The notes under the pieces are model-generated. The model saw only the letters and a program-made list of their open reading frames with translations. It made no database searches and was not told the DNA's origin. A stretch of 33,498 bases of DNA from Candidatus Zixiibacteriota bacterium (GTDB lineage Bacteria > JAAXHH01): the NCBI GenBank assembly GCA_016867335.1, contig VGJU01000015.1:1-33498 (forward strand). The letters run 5' to 3'. Each line of letters opens with the position of its first letter. The first letter of the stretch is position 1. A program made the translations under genes and the position numbers. Positions 5,271-15,147 of this stretch are shown in pieces.

Positions 5271-6710
5271 TCGCCGCAAATAGGCGTATATCCAGGTTAA
5301 CCGGTCCTTCATGGATGGTTTGAGTTTGGTCCGGCGATAGGCGTCTCCCAACGCCCGGTTGACATCGGACAGCGTCGGATACGCATGGATGACCCCCGAC
5401 AGTTTGTCGAGGGTCAGACCATTCTTTTTGGCCAGCGTCAGTTCGGCGATTAACTCTCCCGCATGAGGATGAACGATCGCCGCGCCAAGGATTTTTCCGG
5501 TTCCCTTTGCCGTCAGAACTTTGGCAAATCCCTCCGTCTCGCCTTCGGATACCGCCCGGTCGATGTGTTCGAAATCCACGCGATACACGTCGTAAGAAAT
5601 TCCTTTCTGCCGCGCTTCGTCTTCCGAAAGCCCGACACGACCGATTTCCGGGTCGGTAAACGTGACCCACGGGGTGTTTTCGTAATCGCACTTGGCCGTA
5701 ACGGGAAAAAGCGTGTTCTGGATGACCACCCGCGCCTGATACCCGGCCCAGTGGGTAAACTGATACGGTCCGGCTACATCGCCTATCGCCCATATCGAGG
5801 ATATGTTGGTCCGACAGGCCGCGTTTACCTTGATCCCCGGACGGTCGTACACGACACCCGTCTCGTCCAGCCCCAGGCCTTCGATATTGGGACGCCGCCC
5901 CGTAGCCAGCAGAATTTCGTCCACTACATGCGTCTCAGATCCGGTTTCGGTCGTGACGGTCACGTGTTTTTCGCCGTCTTTTCGCTCCACTCCGGCCACC
6001 TTGATCAGATCGACGATACGTATGCCTTCGCTCCGGAACCTACGTGCCAGTGCTTCGGCCACGTCCTCGTCTTCTTTGGGTACGATATGCGCCAGATCGT
6101 GTACCACCGTCACCTCGGAGCCGAGTCTTCGAAACGACTGACCTATTTCGATGCCGATCGGCCCTCCACCGATCACCATAAGCCGCCGAGGAAGTTCGGT
6201 GGCCTGAAACACCGTCTCGTTGGTCAGATACCCCGCGTCCTGAAGACCCGGTATCGGGGGGACGAACGCGCGCGACCCGGTCGAAATGACGATATGTCGG
6301 CCCCAGATCGTCTCTCCGGTCCCTTCGATTTCGACTTCGTGCGCCGAACGGAGCCTGCCACTGCCCAGCTTTACCTCGACACCAAGCCCAGTAAACCGTT
6401 CCACCGAATCGTGCGGGGCGAGGTGGGCCTGTGTCTTGCGCACATAGTCCATCGCGGCTTTCAAATCCTGAGGTGGAAGCGTATCCAGCCCGGTATGTAT
6501 GGCAAAACGATCGGCCGTGCGTACGGCGTGGGCGGTCTTGCCTACCTTGATAAACGCTTTGGAAGGTACACAACCGTAGTTGAGACAGTCGCCGCCCATT
6601 TTGTGTTTTTCGATCAGCGCAACCCGTGCACCCAACCCCGCCGCGCCCGCCGCCACGACCAGACCGCCCGACCCCGCGCCGATCACTATGATATTGTATC
6701 GCTCCATCAT
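5265..6710 (-). CDS. MerA-like FAD/NAD(P) pyridine nucleotide-disulfide oxidoreductase
   Basis: This 481-residue two-dinucleotide-fold flavoprotein has an FAD-binding GAGSGG (11-16), the redox disulfide C42-x4-C47 (GGDCLNYGCVPSK), a second Rossmann motif IGGGPIGIE, the FAD motif WAIGDVAG and a C-terminal dimerisation domain. In true dihydrolipoyl dehydrogenase the C-terminal active site reads HAHPT with the second His catalytic. Here it reads IHAYPTLSD with Tyr, as in the MerA-like branch, so lipoamide dehydrogenase activity is unlikely. Members of this branch occur next to, or fused with, VTT (TVP38/TMEM64) membrane proteins, and the VTT gene lies just upstream on the same strand. The physiological substrate is unknown. 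The two first ATG codons are adjacent, with AAGGA upstream. The gene ends against the Uma2 remnant. Confidence 0.88.
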   Translation of the reverse strand: MMERYNIIVIGAGSGGLVVAAGAAGLGARVALIEKHKMGGDCLNYGCVPSKAFIKVGKTAHAVRTADRFAIHTGLDTLPPQDLKAAMDYVRKTQAHLAPHDSVERFTGLGVEVKLGSGRLRSAHEVEIEGTGETIWGRHIVISTGSRAFVPPIPGLQDAGYLTNETVFQATELPRRLMVIGGGPIGIEIGQSFRRLGSEVTVVHDLAHIVPKEDEDVAEALARRFRSEGIRIVDLIKVAGVERKDGEKHVTVTTETGSETHVVDEILLATGRRPNIEGLGLDETGVVYDRPGIKVNAACRTNISSIWAIGDVAGPYQFTHWAGYQARVVIQNTLFPVTAKCDYENTPWVTFTDPEIGRVGLSEDEARQKGISYDVYRVDFEHIDRAVSEGETEGFAKVLTAKGTGKILGAAIVHPHAGELIAELTLAKKNGLTLDKLSGVIHAYPTLSDVNRALGDAYRRTKLKPSMKDRLTWIYAYLRRS

Positions 6711-9137: not shown

Positions 9138-9190
9138 TTACTGTTTGGCTTCCATGGCTTCGATATGGAGTTCGATTTTTACCTCATCGC
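9138..9190 (-). other. Out-of-frame C-terminal tail of the YceI gene
   Basis: In the frame shifted by one base from the YceI gene, this stretch encodes GDEVKIELHIEAMEAKQ and then TAA (9138-9140). That is the normal last strand of the YceI barrel. A CC at 9190-9191 where CCC is expected would restore one continuous frame of 196 residues. Confidence 0.75.
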
Positions 9191-9727
9191 CACGGCCACA
9201 CCGCCCGCATCCAAAATACGGCTCCACTTGACACCATAGTCCTGCCGGTTGATCGTCGTGGACGATTCGATACCGATCAATTTACCGCGTCCGTCCATGA
9301 TTGGTCCGGTAAGTGTAAACGGCAACGCGATCTCTTTGGTAACCCCGTGCATGGTAAACGAGCCGTGCGCTACCCAACCGGTGTTTTTCTTTTCGATACG
9401 CGTGCTCTTGAATGTGATTTCCGGATAGGTCGGAGCGTCGAAAAAGTCCGGACTGCGCAGATGGTTGTCGCGCCCCTTGTTGGCGGTGTTGATGCTGGCG
9501 GTTTTGATGGTGACCGTCACGGACGACTTGGTGATGTCCGACGGATCGAGCATGATTTCGCCCATATAGTCGGTAAAACTGCCTTTTACCATGCTGACCA
9601 TGTTATGACGAACGGCAAAACCGACCGACGAGTGTACCTTGTCAATGTTGTATTTTTCGGCGGCTACGGCATTGCCGGTCAGAAAAGCCACAACACCCAA
9701 CGTCAGCACAAAACGAAAACGGTTCAT
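9179..9727 (-). CDS. YceI-family periplasmic lipid-binding protein, 3' end frameshifted
   Basis: As written, this is a 182-residue protein with a signal peptide (MNRFRFVLTLGVVAFLTGNAVAA, cleavage near AVA-AE) and the YceI beta-barrel. Family motifs visible are YNIDKVHSSVGFAVRHNM, NTANKGRDNHLRSPDFFD and GVKWSRILDAGGVAV. YceI proteins bind long amphiphiles such as polyprenoids in the periplasm. The ATG at 9727 was chosen because it starts the signal peptide. The last 3 residues (AMR) before the stop at 9179 are not family-like. The genuine tail follows in another frame (see 9138-9190), so there is a one-base deletion, real or from sequencing. It is a single-gene unit between a promoter candidate and the shared terminator. 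Confidence 0.88.
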   Translation of the reverse strand: MNRFRFVLTLGVVAFLTGNAVAAEKYNIDKVHSSVGFAVRHNMVSMVKGSFTDYMGEIMLDPSDITKSSVTVTIKTASINTANKGRDNHLRSPDFFDAPTYPEITFKSTRIEKKNTGWVAHGSFTMHGVTKEIALPFTLTGPIMDGRGKLIGIESSTTINRQDYGVKWSRILDAGGVAVAMR

Positions 9728-9826
9728 GGTATCTCTTTGGGATAAAAGGGAATAAAAAGGAAGGTGTCTCACAGCAACACCACATCATCTCATAAAGACG
9801 CTAAAGCAAAGCAATCGGTTCCCGGA

Positions 9827-9861: not shown

Positions 9862-11325
9862 CTACACGCGCTGTCGTCTTTGGCCGACGTAATCGGTGAT
9901 ATGGGCGCCGTACCGCTCGACAAACGGTTCAAACAGGTCGGTCCCCCGAACGATCTTGCGACAGTCGGACGCACCGCAGGCACAGGAAAAGGCGGGCATG
10001 GATTCGTGACAGAATGTGGCAAAATCGAGCGTAATTTCCTCTCCGGACTTTATCGGGTGGCGCGTGACTACGCTTAGCCCTTCCCACCAAGCGTTCGGGG
10101 CGCACGAGTGCCGGACGGGACGCCAATCATTTGGATCGTCGGTCCACAGACTCCAGATATCGTCGGTAATCGGAAACCCGTTGCGGTCGAGCCATGTCCC
10201 ATGCTGTGCCCCCGGAAGATGGGTAGTGCCGGTCCTGTGGGTGAGGGTATGTGGATGGTCTTCGAAAGAAAAGACAACCCCGCCTTGCGGTATGTCGTTC
10301 GTAGCAAAAAGACCGTAGTGGCCGTCGCGGTGCAAACGCACTTCGTATTTTTTCCGGCGTTTGGCATGACGCGAAAGCGCTGCGCGGAGGATGGTGTCTA
10401 CAAAACCCGCGTGCCCCCCGGGATCGTTCATCAGGATAAAATCGGCACTGCCTGCGTCTTCAGGGGGATAGAACACCCCGCAGTTGGGATTGATCTCCAG
10501 CATGTACAACTCGCCCGCCGTGTTCATCCGGATGTCACAGCGACCGTAGCTAGCCCCGTTTAGCCCGGTAAACATCCGACGCGACATGGATGTAAGCCGC
10601 TCAATCAAATCGGGATCGTCACACCGACGACAGCCCATACGCGCAAAATCCACCCATTTGAGGTTGAAATGCTTGAATGTCTCCCCTTCAGGAAACATAA
10701 ACTCGACAGGGCGATAGACGATGGGGGTCTGCGGATCGTCGGGATTTTCGGCGACAAGCACGGTAAACTCTTTGCCGTCGATAAACTCTTCGATCAGCGC
10801 GCCACCATAGACCTCCATCATGAAACGCGCCTGTTCACGGAGCGCGTCGGGCGTGGTTACACGCGAGGCGGCAGTAAGACCGATGCTGCTGTAGCTGTTG
10901 GGATGTTTGACGATCATGGGAAAACGAAGCGACACGGCAGCAGCATCCACATCTTCGGCGTTTAGCACAAAACGGCAGGGAGGAGTGGGGATGTCGAAGA
11001 ATGCGCACACCATCTTCATCTGCTGTCTTGTTGGTTCATAGAAGGCCGACGTCGCACCGGTAAACGGCACGTCGAGCCGTTCCAGCGTTTCCACAATCTC
11101 GATGCCCGGAGATTCGCCACCCCACGAACCGTCGCAGAGATTGACAACTACGTCGAACCCTTTGCGGGTCAGTTCCATCACCTGGCGGACACCGTTGGTG
11201 CGTGTCAGAAAATACCGTTCCCACGCATACCGGGCAAAATAGGCTTCCGGTGACGAGGGGGGGTTGTATTCCCCATAGGGGGCCTGAGACAAACCATAGT
11301 CTTCTTCGAGAATACATACTTTCAT
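9862..11325 (-). CDS. ATP-grasp (D-Ala-D-Ala ligase-like) and SET-domain fusion protein
   Basis: This 487-residue protein has two enzymatic parts. Residues 1 to about 320 are a D-Ala-D-Ala-ligase-like ATP-grasp fold. It has K140 in PMIVKHPNSYSSIGL, the ATP-pocket stretch EEFIDGKEFTVLV (179-191), and the metal-binding GRCDIRMNTAGELYMLEINP (261-280) with D264, E277 and N279. Residues about 325-440 are a SET domain: GHYGLFATNDIPQGGVV, then RHSCAPNA (405-412, the NHSCxPN core with R for N) and SGEEITLDFATF. A post-SET zinc-type CxCx4C follows (C448, C450, C455). SET domains methylate lysine with SAM; ATP-grasp enzymes form amide or peptide bonds. One polypeptide may therefore ligate and methylate the same peptide or amino-acid product. 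AAGGA lies 7 bases before the ATG. No obvious peptide substrate is adjacent, apart from a doubtful 54-residue frame just upstream. Confidence 0.87.
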   Translation of the reverse strand: MKVCILEEDYGLSQAPYGEYNPPSSPEAYFARYAWERYFLTRTNGVRQVMELTRKGFDVVVNLCDGSWGGESPGIEIVETLERLDVPFTGATSAFYEPTRQQMKMVCAFFDIPTPPCRFVLNAEDVDAAAVSLRFPMIVKHPNSYSSIGLTAASRVTTPDALREQARFMMEVYGGALIEEFIDGKEFTVLVAENPDDPQTPIVYRPVEFMFPEGETFKHFNLKWVDFARMGCRRCDDPDLIERLTSMSRRMFTGLNGASYGRCDIRMNTAGELYMLEINPNCGVFYPPEDAGSADFILMNDPGGHAGFVDTILRAALSRHAKRRKKYEVRLHRDGHYGLFATNDIPQGGVVFSFEDHPHTLTHRTGTTHLPGAQHGTWLDRNGFPITDDIWSLWTDDPNDWRPVRHSCAPNAWWEGLSVVTRHPIKSGEEITLDFATFCHESMPAFSCACGASDCRKIVRGTDLFEPFVERYGAHITDYVGQRRQRV

Positions 11326-11421
11326 GAGAGTCCTTTTTCACTTCCGATACCGTAGGTTTTGTCTTCCCGTTACCACACTTTGACGGTTGTAGCTCGATAC
11401 GACTTACTATAACGTCGGTCT

Positions 11422-12736: not shown

Positions 12737-13303
12737 TCAAAAACACTGGAAAGACCGGGGTGAAGTCGTCTCGGCGACATGCCACAAGGATTCGGGCAAC
12801 ACCCGTGCCAGCCCGTACTCCGCCACGCGCATCCTAAGCGACCGAGCCACCGCATCGCCTGTCGGTCGCGGAAGTCCCTGCAACTCTCGGATAAACCGTT
12901 TTAGCCCCGCCTCGCAGAAAGCCGCAGGAAATACCGCATTGGGCGAAAAACCGTGCGGTATCTCCTGCGTCACCGTTGCCGTCAGTTCGAAAAAACGACG
13001 AAACGTCTGCGTATCCAGTTGGAGCCAATAAGGAAAACGGATGATCCGATGCCCGTGTTTTTCGGCGATGCGGTCCTGCTCCCGGTCGATCCGAATACGA
13101 AACGGATCCGTATAGTGTATCGCGTCATCGTATTCGATAAAAACGATGCCTTCCGTCGTGTACAGTGCCATGTCCCGGCTGCGTGTCGGGCCTTTGATCT
13201 GCACGGTTTCCCCGCACCAGCGTTCCCCCGCCGCCGCGCGCAAGGCGCAGGCCAGCCGTTCCCGTGTAAGAGAACCGTCGATGAGTACGGTCGGTGCGTT
13301 CAT
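12737..13303 (-). CDS. DUF559/Vsr-like restriction-endonuclease-fold protein
   Basis: This is a 188-residue protein. Its centre (IVFIEYDDAIHYTDPFRIRI, then DREQDRIAEKHGHRIIRFPYW) matches the DUF559/very-short-patch-repair-like endonuclease fold. An acidic strand E-Y-D is followed by H-Y, a D-x-x-D/R helix and a final hydrophobic strand R-I-I-R-F. These residues would form a PD-(D/E)xK-type metal site, but the exact catalytic set is inferred. The ATG overlaps the hemH stop as ATGA (13300-13303), with GGAG inside the hemH end, so the two genes are translationally coupled. It converges on the second PhyH gene. A nuclease-like protein behind ferrochelatase is unexpected; a housekeeping role is unknown. 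Confidence 0.65.
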   Translation of the reverse strand: MNAPTVLIDGSLTRERLACALRAAAGERWCGETVQIKGPTRSRDMALYTTEGIVFIEYDDAIHYTDPFRIRIDREQDRIAEKHGHRIIRFPYWLQLDTQTFRRFFELTATVTQEIPHGFSPNAVFPAAFCEAGLKRFIRELQGLPRPTGDAVARSLRMRVAEYGLARVLPESLWHVAETTSPRSFQCF

Positions 13304-14325
13304 GCGGGACGCATCTCCGGACGCCCCGAAAGACAACACCCAACCACACACCGATCGGGCAATGGCAAAAGATCGCCGAGACAGACCCGCTCCGGCATGT
13401 CGTAAAGCCGCTCTTCGATCAGTTCGCGTATCATGGAGACAACCCGAGGATGCGTACCCACCGTCTCCGCGCGCACCATACGGTGCCCAAGCCGGTCGCA
13501 GACGGCCCGCGCCGCTACGTCGATGTCGTAGACCACCTCTATATGGTCCGAGACAAAGCCGATGGGCACGACGATCACATCGCGCGATCCTTTCCGGTTA
13601 TATAATTCCTGTAGATAATCACCGATATCCGGCTCCAGCCAAGGCTGCGAAGATGGTCCGCTTCGGCTTTGATACACAAGCGTCCACTCCGGATGCTCAA
13701 CCGATGCGGCAATAAGCCGAGCGGTTTCACGCAACTGCGTTTCGTACCGACAGCCGGCGGCCATCGCAAGCGGTATCGAGTGCGCAGTAAACACCCATTC
13801 GCAAGAGGCTCTTCGCTCCGACGGTATCTGGTTCAACGCTGCCGCAACTCGATCGGTCTGTGCCGCGAGAAAACCCGGATGATGAAAAAACGCCCGCAGT
13901 TTGTCTATGACAGGCGCACCTTCCCCGACCGCCCGACGCGCCTCCTCGATATTTTCCAGATACTGACGACAATTCGAATACGAAGAGTAGGCCGAAGTGA
14001 CAAAAGCGAGCGCCCGCCGTACGCCGTCCCGTTTCATCGTCTCGACCGTATCCGGCAACATGGGGTGCCAGTTCCGGTTGCCCCAGTACACAGGCAGGTC
14101 CATCCCCTGTGTTTTCAATTCGGTTTCGAGTGCCGCGATCAACCGACGATTTTGCCCGTTGATCGGGCTGACACCGCCAAAACGCCGATAGTGCTTGGCA
14201 ACCTCCTCCATGCGTTCCGGCGGGACGTTGCGCCCGCGCAGCACGTTGTGCAAAAACGGCATGATGTCTTCCGGTCCTTCGGGACCGCCAAACGAAACGA
14301 CCAATATCGCCTGATAATCCGCCAT
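13300..14325 (-). CDS. hemH: Ferrochelatase, coproporphyrin (CpfC) type likely
   Basis: This 341-residue type II chelatase inserts Fe(II) into a porphyrin. Catalytic H182 (FTAHSIP) and E263 (SDHIEVVYD) are in place. The N-terminus (LVVSFGGPEGPEDIMPFL) and VYWGNRNWHPMLPDTV closely resemble actinobacterial CpfC enzymes. Those enzymes act on coproporphyrin III and carry a [2Fe-2S] cluster held by one central and several C-terminal cysteines. Here C119 (YSNCRQY) and C315, C326, C330 and C331 could serve, though the C-terminal spacing differs. The start at 14325 is chosen for the adjacent purine-rich GAGGGGGG site. The divergent neighbour is hemQ, the next enzyme in the coproporphyrin route, so the assignment is supported by context. 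Confidence 0.93.
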   Translation of the reverse strand: MADYQAILVVSFGGPEGPEDIMPFLHNVLRGRNVPPERMEEVAKHYRRFGGVSPINGQNRRLIAALETELKTQGMDLPVYWGNRNWHPMLPDTVETMKRDGVRRALAFVTSAYSSYSNCRQYLENIEEARRAVGEGAPVIDKLRAFFHHPGFLAAQTDRVAAALNQIPSERRASCEWVFTAHSIPLAMAAGCRYETQLRETARLIAASVEHPEWTLVYQSRSGPSSQPWLEPDIGDYLQELYNRKGSRDVIVVPIGFVSDHIEVVYDIDVAARAVCDRLGHRMVRAETVGTHPRVVSMIRELIEERLYDMPERVCLGDLLPLPDRCVVGCCLSGRPEMRPA

Positions 14326-14354
14326 TTCCCCCCTCTTTGGTTTTGACAAAATGC

Positions 14355-14383
14355 TTGATCGGGCCCTCTGTTGCGTATATTGT
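14355..14383 (+). promoter_or_regulatory. Candidate promoter for hemQ
   Basis: TTGATC (14355-14360), 17 bases, then TATTGT (14378-14383), 45 bases before the hemQ ATG. The same AT-rich block, read leftward as TACAAT, may also serve hemH. The -10 is imperfect. Confidence 0.35.
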
Positions 14384-14427
14384 ACCTTACTGTCACACAG
14401 GACAAGAACGAAACCTAAGGAGCGCTC

Positions 14428-15147
14428 ATGTCATCCGAATCCCATTCATCCCCCGATATGCGGGAATACGGCGCGCCGGTAGACGGAAAACCGCAGACCA
14501 GCGACCGCCGTCTCTATATGCAACTCCAAGCGTATACCGGCGTGACCGATATGGGGACGATCCGGAACGCGCTGTCGGCGTCCGGGCTTGCAGCGGCGCT
14601 GTATGCGGATGCCGCAGATCCGATGGGTGCGGGGATCGTTTTCCTTTCGGAAAATCCCGACGACTTTGTAGCCGATATCCGAAGCCTCCTCGCTACCACC
14701 CCTTTCGACGGTCTGAAACGTCGTCCGGAAATGACGATGTTCGGAAGAAGCTACGCCACAGGATATGAGCCGGACCTCGAAGATGCGCTTGTCGGTCGTC
14801 CGCGTAGGACAGTGCTCAATCCGGACTGGCTCTGGGCGATCTGGTATCCCTTGCGACGCAACGGCGCGTTTGCGCGACTGGACGGCAAGACACAGCGTGA
14901 AATCCTCATGGAACATGCCGCCATTGGCCGAGCCTATGGACGCGCCGATGTTGCGCACGATATCCGGTTGGCCTGCTACGGCATGGACGAACACGACAAC
15001 GATTTTGTCATCGGACTGGTGGGAAAAGCCCTGCATCCGCTGTCCAAAGTCGTTCAAGATATGCGCAAGACACAACAGACTTCGTTGTACATAGATTCGC
15101 TGGGGCCGTTTTTTATCGGCAAAAAGACATGGGCAAGCGAGCGGTAG
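14428..15147 (+). CDS. hemQ: Coproheme decarboxylase HemQ (chlorite dismutase family)
   Basis: This 239-residue protein catalyses peroxide-dependent decarboxylation of coproheme III to heme b, the last step of the coproporphyrin-dependent pathway. The proximal heme histidine H163 sits in MEHAAIGRAYG, and the reactive tyrosine is probably Y140 in AIWYPLRRNG. Further family blocks are IRLACYGMDEHDNDFVIGLV and R-K-T-Q-x(7)-D-S-L-G-P-F-F-I-G. It lacks the distal arginine-centred motif expected of true chlorite dismutases, as far as can be seen. AAGGAG lies 6 bases before the ATG. Placement divergent from ferrochelatase strongly supports heme synthesis rather than chlorite detoxification. It converges on mutY with a 9-base gap. 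Confidence 0.92.
   Translation: MSSESHSSPDMREYGAPVDGKPQTSDRRLYMQLQAYTGVTDMGTIRNALSASGLAAALYADAADPMGAGIVFLSENPDDFVADIRSLLATTPFDGLKRRPEMTMFGRSYATGYEPDLEDALVGRPRRTVLNPDWLWAIWYPLRRNGAFARLDGKTQREILMEHAAIGRAYGRADVAHDIRLACYGMDEHDNDFVIGLVGKALHPLSKVVQDMRKTQQTSLYIDSLGPFFIGKKTWASER

Follow-up and report, generated by a model that had tools for sequence, protein, structure and literature searches.

A bacterial protein family joining a Ddl-like ATP-grasp ligase to a SET domain, with a putative role in a small-molecule pathway

The window, i.e., the whole stretch of 33,498 nucleotides analyzed here (contig VGJU01000015.1 of assembly GCA_016867335.1, Candidatus Zixiibacteriota bacterium), contains on its minus strand a single open reading frame in which an ATP-grasp domain is followed by a SET domain. 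The following features could be assigned:

9862..11325, minus strand: ATP-grasp-SET fusion gene, 487 amino acids plus stop (ATG at 11325, stop codon at 9862-9864)
10383..11325, minus strand: predicted N-terminal Ddl-like ATP-grasp amide ligase domain, residues 1-314 (Pfam PF07478, conservation, Ddl as nearest solved family)
9862..10340, minus strand: predicted C-terminal SET domain with post-SET zinc motif, residues 329-487 (Pfam PF00856, conservation, BurB as best PDB match)
11331..11335, minus strand: Shine-Dalgarno-like AAGGA, 5 nt 5′ of the ATG (read from the sequence)

A preliminary description of this DNA had given the coordinates and the 487 residues exactly, without naming the strand, and its account of the two domains agrees with the profile searches. 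The ligase half matches Dala_Dala_lig_C (PF07478) at residues 126-283 with 56.9 bits (cut-off 24), and the lysine and metal ligands described as intact are present (K140, E179, E186, K223, D264, E277 and N279). The C-terminal part, for which that description had considered that it might not be SET after all, matches SET (PF00856) at residues 337-435 with 33.0 bits and thus above the curated cut-off of 22.4. Both of its reported motifs were found, the HSCxPN core as H406-S-C-A-P-N and the post-SET CxCx4C motif as C448-x-C450-x4-C455 with C408 as fourth zinc ligand. All four zinc ligands are kept in the window protein and in 42-43 of 43 family members. In contrast, the window protein lacks the DY tyrosine and the NHSC asparagine of SET lysine methyltransferases: it has F435 at the SET Tyr position, where 39 of 43 members have Tyr, and R405 at the position of the Asn, which is kept in 33 of 43.

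In the window, the fusion gene stands alone without an operon partner. Next downstream on the same strand, after a gap of about 90 bp, lies a YceI-like gene (9179-9772), and the upstream neighbor on the opposite strand encodes a PhyH dioxygenase. The genome is a draft of 431 contigs with 5% contamination; however, a ferrochelatase encoded 2 kb from the fusion is 62-66% identical to single orthologs in genomes of the same family, and the contig therefore belongs to the lineage. A genome-wide search identified the window SET (36.3 bits) as the only SET domain in the 4.4 Mb. In the 15 other genomes of the phylum searched, the fusion was absent at a threshold of 1e-20; in the window genome it is an accessory gene. 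A canonical Ddl is encoded on contig C78 (308 bits, TIGR01205), while all other ATP-grasp matches in this genome show weak or no similarity and lie outside the fusion family. As a side observation, the ferrochelatase gene sits beside a gene of the chlorite dismutase family (possibly a coproheme decarboxylase) on the opposite strand (13300-15147), and in several genomes of the same family what looks like an in-frame insertion divides the match to ferrochelatase around residue 250.

To look for the same domain pair in other genomes had been proposed in the preliminary description, and at least 42 loci from nine named phyla contain it. A search of one genome per species yielded 287 candidate stretches, 280 of which are relatives; the analysis covers the best 80 of these. 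Among these best 80 of 280, ATP-grasp and SET occur in one open reading frame at 42 loci and ATP-grasp alone at 38; as the ranking favors full-length matches, 42 of 80 does not reflect prevalence. The fusion homologs, again among the best 80 of 280, are 36-52% identical to the window protein and stem, with taxa as recorded, from Actinomycetota, Pseudomonadota, Chloroflexota, Chlorobiota, Rhodothermota, Gemmatimonadota, Myxococcota, Planctomycetota and Acidobacteriota. Among them are the isolate Chlorobium ferrooxidans DSM 13031 (L060; NZ_AASE01000012.1) and a chromosome assembled as one contig (CP070670.1). Three of the 42 loci have flaws, namely a break within the SET domain (L073), a start at the edge of a contig (L081) and an upstream frame break (L082). 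One deep-branching fusion (L076) comes from a metagenome-assembled genome labeled 'Klebsiella pneumoniae', a label that is probably wrong.

Gene neighborhoods, likewise named as a check, revealed a second SET domain, an ABC exporter or extra ATP-grasp genes near many fusions. The second SET domain (SET2, with the motif FFYPSTEWxM; the fused type of the window is called SET1) is linked to the fusion at 22 of the 42 fusion loci, compared to none of the 38 stand-alone ligase loci (best 80 of 280). At 12 of the 22 it is encoded directly before the fusion (all 8 of 8 Chlorobiaceae loci, one of Methylococcales, one of Beijerinckiaceae and two of Caldilineaceae type), mostly with a spacing of -6 to 13 bp; in C. 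ferrooxidans it ends at 5985 according to tblastn. At nine loci from Myxococcota, Acidobacteriota, Planctomycetota and unclassified bacteria (L067, L068, L070, L072, L075, L077, L081, L082 and L096), SET2 is fused in frame as C-terminal third domain of ATP-grasp-SET1-SET2 proteins of about 650 amino acids, and at L100 it is encoded some 4 kb upstream of the fusion. An ABC exporter (ABC_membrane plus ABC_tran) is encoded directly beside the fusion or SET2 at 10 loci from three phyla within the same 80 of 280 relatives, either after the fusion (L050, L053-L058, L060 and L067) or before SET2 (L089); these calls derive from Pfam for L050, L054, L067 and L089 and from the BLAST cluster for the remaining loci. 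In Chlorobiaceae, C. ferrooxidans included, these genes form a four-gene operon of SET2, fusion, ABC exporter and a small third SET (SET3; L054 5386-9695). SET3 closes the Chlorobi operons and was not seen in L079, whose contig ends there. In a tree, SET1, SET2 and SET3 form three separate clades.

The more divergent fusions at L094, L100, L105 and L107, which share 36-38% identity with the window protein, are directly preceded by one or two additional ATP-grasp genes; this suggests a stepwise assembly of a product longer than a dipeptide. Other metabolic neighbors are varied (cysteine synthase, acetolactate-synthase-like, cupin, radical SAM), and apart from SET2 and the ABC exporter no neighbor is common to different lineages. 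The possibility of a graspetide-type ribosomal peptide was also considered, but no precursor peptide gene lies beside the ATP-grasp gene at the Chlorobi loci: the intergenic gaps of this operon are mostly 9 and 38 bp and hold no small open reading frame common to the loci. Large proteins are encoded just upstream of two of the fusions, one with a spermine-synthase-like domain (L072, 3712-5952) and one with a Rossmann-type methyltransferase domain (L073, 3625-5958).

All solved relatives of the ligase half are Ddl enzymes, and the ATP-grasp fold as well as the catalytic residues are common to both. The Ddl residue numbering and the roles in binding of ATP and magnesium, in acyl phosphate formation and in D-Ala selection are general background on that enzyme, while the correspondences were derived from alignments. 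Within the family K140, E179, E186, K223, R262, D264 and N279 are invariant and E277 is nearly so; the equivalents of Ddl K97, K144, S151, E180, E187, K215, R255, D257, E270 and N272 are all invariant or nearly so. However, Ddl E148, S150, Y210 and Y216 correspond to S144, to the variable position 146 (S/A/G/D), to K218 and to W224, and the N-terminal 46 residues, at the segment carrying Ddl Glu15, could not be aligned to Ddl. The D-Ala-binding set of Glu15, Ser150 and Tyr216 is thus not conserved in the family. The family furthermore has invariant residues of its own (C64, G66, R266, C282 and a GSAD motif), and the window protein scores only 70.4 bits against TIGR01205, far below the cut-off of 245.65. 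As the D-Ala-selecting residues are not conserved and the genome has its own Ddl, the ligase half is probably an amide-type ligase with a substrate other than D-Ala.

As to the kind of METHYLTRANSFERASE, the closest solved relative of the SET half might be BurB (PDB 9l4t/9l4v), a SET-domain methionine S-methyltransferase from Burkholderia thailandensis with a Streptomyces homolog, MSMT. For SET2 this relationship is clear: its profile matches BurB over nearly the whole chain with 8.7e-24, compared to 1e-8 for the best histone enzyme. The SET1 profile matches BurB only over the C-terminal half and with a small margin (1.9e-16, compared to 1.5e-14 for KMT2A); a PDB search with the window SET alone gave 4.2e-6 for BurB and 1.1e-4 for KMT2D as next hit. 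In the SET tree BurB falls outside the SET1 clade, although on a long branch. For SET1, the relationship to BurB is thus a lead rather than a proof. Common to BurB and the window SET are the HSCxPN motif, a spacing of 13 residues from the SET Tyr position to CxCx4C, and the SAM-binding His (H93, corresponding to H406). BurB is, however, a free-standing enzyme of 172 amino acids which acts alongside a decarboxylase in the DMSP/malleicyprol pathway, whereas the window SET is fused to a ligase, and BurB Y124 aligns with F435.

BurB methylates free methionine to S-methylmethionine, relying on proximity and desolvation, and binds the methionine through main-chain contacts (PMC12542666). As these contacts are main-chain, sequence cannot decide whether methionine is the substrate of the SET domains described here. 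The Y124F variant of BurB retains over 60% of its activity (PMC12542666), and BurB has Leu at the position of R405. By the standard of BurB, F435 and R405 would therefore not be fatal, while both would be damaging by the standard of lysine methyltransferases. The assignment as lysine methyltransferase made in the preliminary description is weakened by this free-amino-acid enzyme being the nearest solved relative, bearing in mind the small margin of SET1 over histone enzymes.

Stand-alone ligases form, apart from a few separate cases, one large clade nested inside the fusions (support 98/89) in ligase trees whose root was set with the upstream ATP-grasp proteins, alone or together with the Ddl of the window genome. 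Members of this clade belong to Krumholzibacteriota, Planctomycetota and Verrucomicrobiota, among others. Most simply, this would mean that the fusion is ancestral and that SET was lost later, although the long outgroup branches and the weak support at several inner nodes leave the number of losses unsure. Nine of 14 Krumholzibacteriota genomes with a stand-alone ligase contain no SET domain at all. Since the ligase persists in such genomes, its product must be of use without methylation, and the large SET-less clade together with these nine genomes implies that methylation is not essential to the role of the ligase. In Verrucomicrobia and Planctomycetes, the genes around stand-alone ligases did not point to a function.

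Taken together, it is about an even call whether the fusion family represents a bifunctional enzyme of a small-molecule pathway that is independent of non-ribosomal peptide synthetases (NRPS). The ATP-grasp domain would, judging by its fold and its conserved residues, activate an amino-acid-like carboxylate as acyl phosphate and join it to an amine, yielding an amide. The fused SET domain would then, by analogy to BurB, transfer the methyl group of SAM to a sulfur or nitrogen of a building block or of the product. A second SET of BurB-like type, which many lineages have as the next gene or as third domain, may methylate another position, and an ABC exporter would carry the product out of the cell. 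Because the fusion often stands in an operon with SET enzymes and an exporter, a small exported product appears more plausible than the marking of a protein. Besides the 42 fusion loci, the linkage of SET2 (22/42 against 0/38) and the 10 loci with an exporter, this reading is favored by ATP and Mg residues that are invariant where the D-Ala-selecting ones are not, by the separate canonical Ddl, by the extra upstream ATP-grasp genes and varied metabolic neighbors, and by the lack of a precursor-peptide reading frame in the Chlorobi operon. Against it count the small margin of SET1 for BurB, the other neighbors that are not common to lineages, the window genome, which has no SET2 in a genome search and no exporter adjoining the fusion gene, and the SET-less ligase clade. 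The earlier suggestion of a small peptide that is made and then methylated fits the evidence from the operons, i.e., second SET, ABC exporter and extra ATP-grasp genes. A more specific and rather tentative proposal, to which we give somewhat less than even chances, is that the ATP-grasp-SET and ATP-grasp-SET-SET proteins make small methylated peptides, possibly with a sulfonium or betaine group, that are exported by ABC transporters, and that the family has spread laterally through ten or so phyla.

In the window organism itself the ligase half of the lone gene looks sound, while its SET half may be altered in its chemistry or decaying. For 36 members the mean identity to the others was compared between the SET half and the ligase half. 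This comparison, which was chosen after the residues had been seen, showed that the three members with an altered SET Tyr, namely the window protein (F), L066 (H) and L074 (H), rank lowest in SET identity relative to the identity of their ligase half (window: z = -2.3, post hoc). This is only suggestive, but the window SET may have diverged beyond what its ligase half would predict and be altered or failing. It is accordingly a serious possibility, if one we would hold at roughly one in three, that in the window copy only the ATP-grasp half works and that the SET domain is drifting, or is a structural or regulatory appendage, en route to loss. The replacements F435 and R405 at catalytic and cofactor positions would fit with this, as would the post hoc ranking of the three altered-Tyr members as the most SET-diverged of the 36, the earlier SET loss seen in the nested stand-alone clade (98/89) and a genome without other SET or pathway neighbors. 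Nevertheless, the reading frame is intact, the four zinc cysteines, H406 and P410 are all kept, the matching Y124F variant of BurB retains most of its activity (PMC12542666), and BurB has Leu before HSC where the window protein has Arg.

It is rather unlikely that the family instead modifies proteins, as the preliminary description had also suggested, with the ligase adding an amino acid or peptide tag and the SET domain methylating this tag or a protein lysine in a manner similar to TTLL12. Protein lysine methylation is the best-known activity of SET domains, and the DY Tyr used for it is kept in 39 of 43 members. TTL enzymes are moreover ATP-grasp ligases, and TTLL12 pairs a TTL-like with a SET-like domain (PMC3520985). 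However, the best solved match of both SET1 and SET2 acts on a free amino acid, an exporter and additional ligases encoded in the operons would suit a product that diffuses, and the closest family to the ligase is Ddl, whose substrates are free amino acids, rather than TTL or RimK-type enzymes.

A D-Ala-D-X-type ligase that modifies the precursors of peptidoglycan, with the SET domain methylating their peptide, appears very improbable. The best NCBIfam and PDB matches are, admittedly, all D-alanine--D-alanine ligases, but the low TIGR01205 score next to the 308 bits of the Ddl on contig C78, the replaced Ddl residues E148, S150, Y210 and Y216 and the unalignable Glu15 region speak against it, and no van-like or mur genes were present among the neighbors examined. 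The cell-wall role considered in the preliminary description thus finds no support, as the D-Ala-selecting residues are not conserved and the genome has its own Ddl. That a sequencing or assembly error joined two genes, as one might suspect in a contaminated 431-contig draft, is already refuted for the family by the same junction at 42 loci including NZ_AASE01000012.1 and CP070670.1, and for the window it is next to inconceivable given neighboring genes that belong to the lineage.

Ligases and methyltransferases had been described as not normally combined, and without a well-known pathway to explain the pair. Indeed, no described pathway was found in the literature searched; the first part of the statement needs amendment, as the eukaryotic TTLL12, the sole ATP-grasp/SET pair in one protein found in that literature, combines a SET-like with an ATP-grasp-type TTL domain in reverse order and no activity was found for it (PMC3520985). 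Its N-terminal SET-like domain is most similar to SETD3/4/6, both of its domains are without critical residues, and its ATP-grasp part belongs to another family, whereas the bacterial fusion is Ddl-like with a C-terminal SET. The two are almost certainly independent. ATP-grasp pathways such as that of E-64 (PMC12568646) yield small peptide-like products without ribosome or NRPS; they use other ligases, and a SET methyltransferase is not known to be described in them. A review of bacterial SET proteins makes no mention of ligases, and no example with SET is found in papers of the Aravind group on ATP-grasp peptide ligases (CDC123/R2K). The parts are thus of known kinds, while their combination, the operon and the three-domain form were not found in the open-licence literature searched and may be described elsewhere.

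Discussion of bacterial SET proteins usually centers on histone-like lysine methyltransferases or host-directed effectors. The operons of fusion, BurB-like SET and exporter offer a direct test for a second, metabolic branch of SET enzymes and, if the proposed pathway is true, small-molecule SET methyltransferases would extend beyond BurB. Green sulfur bacteria and other little-studied phyla would then make small exported compounds of a class that is unexplored, and genes of this kind cannot safely be annotated as 'SET domain-containing lysine methyltransferase'.

No relatives of the fusion were present in the viral contigs scanned, and the plasmids scanned contained no fusion and only distant ATP-grasp proteins of about 25-28% identity. 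One of these, on plasmid pTHIMO01 of Thioflavicoccus mobilis (L131), is encoded in a run with a diaminobutyrate transaminase, SbnA and an ornithine-cyclodeaminase-like gene, with KamA on the opposite strand, which resembles a cluster for a small diamino-acid product. Another one adjoins a CapA family gene on the symbiotic plasmid pNGR234a of Sinorhizobium fredii (L130), and proteins similar to it occur on several rhizobial plasmids.
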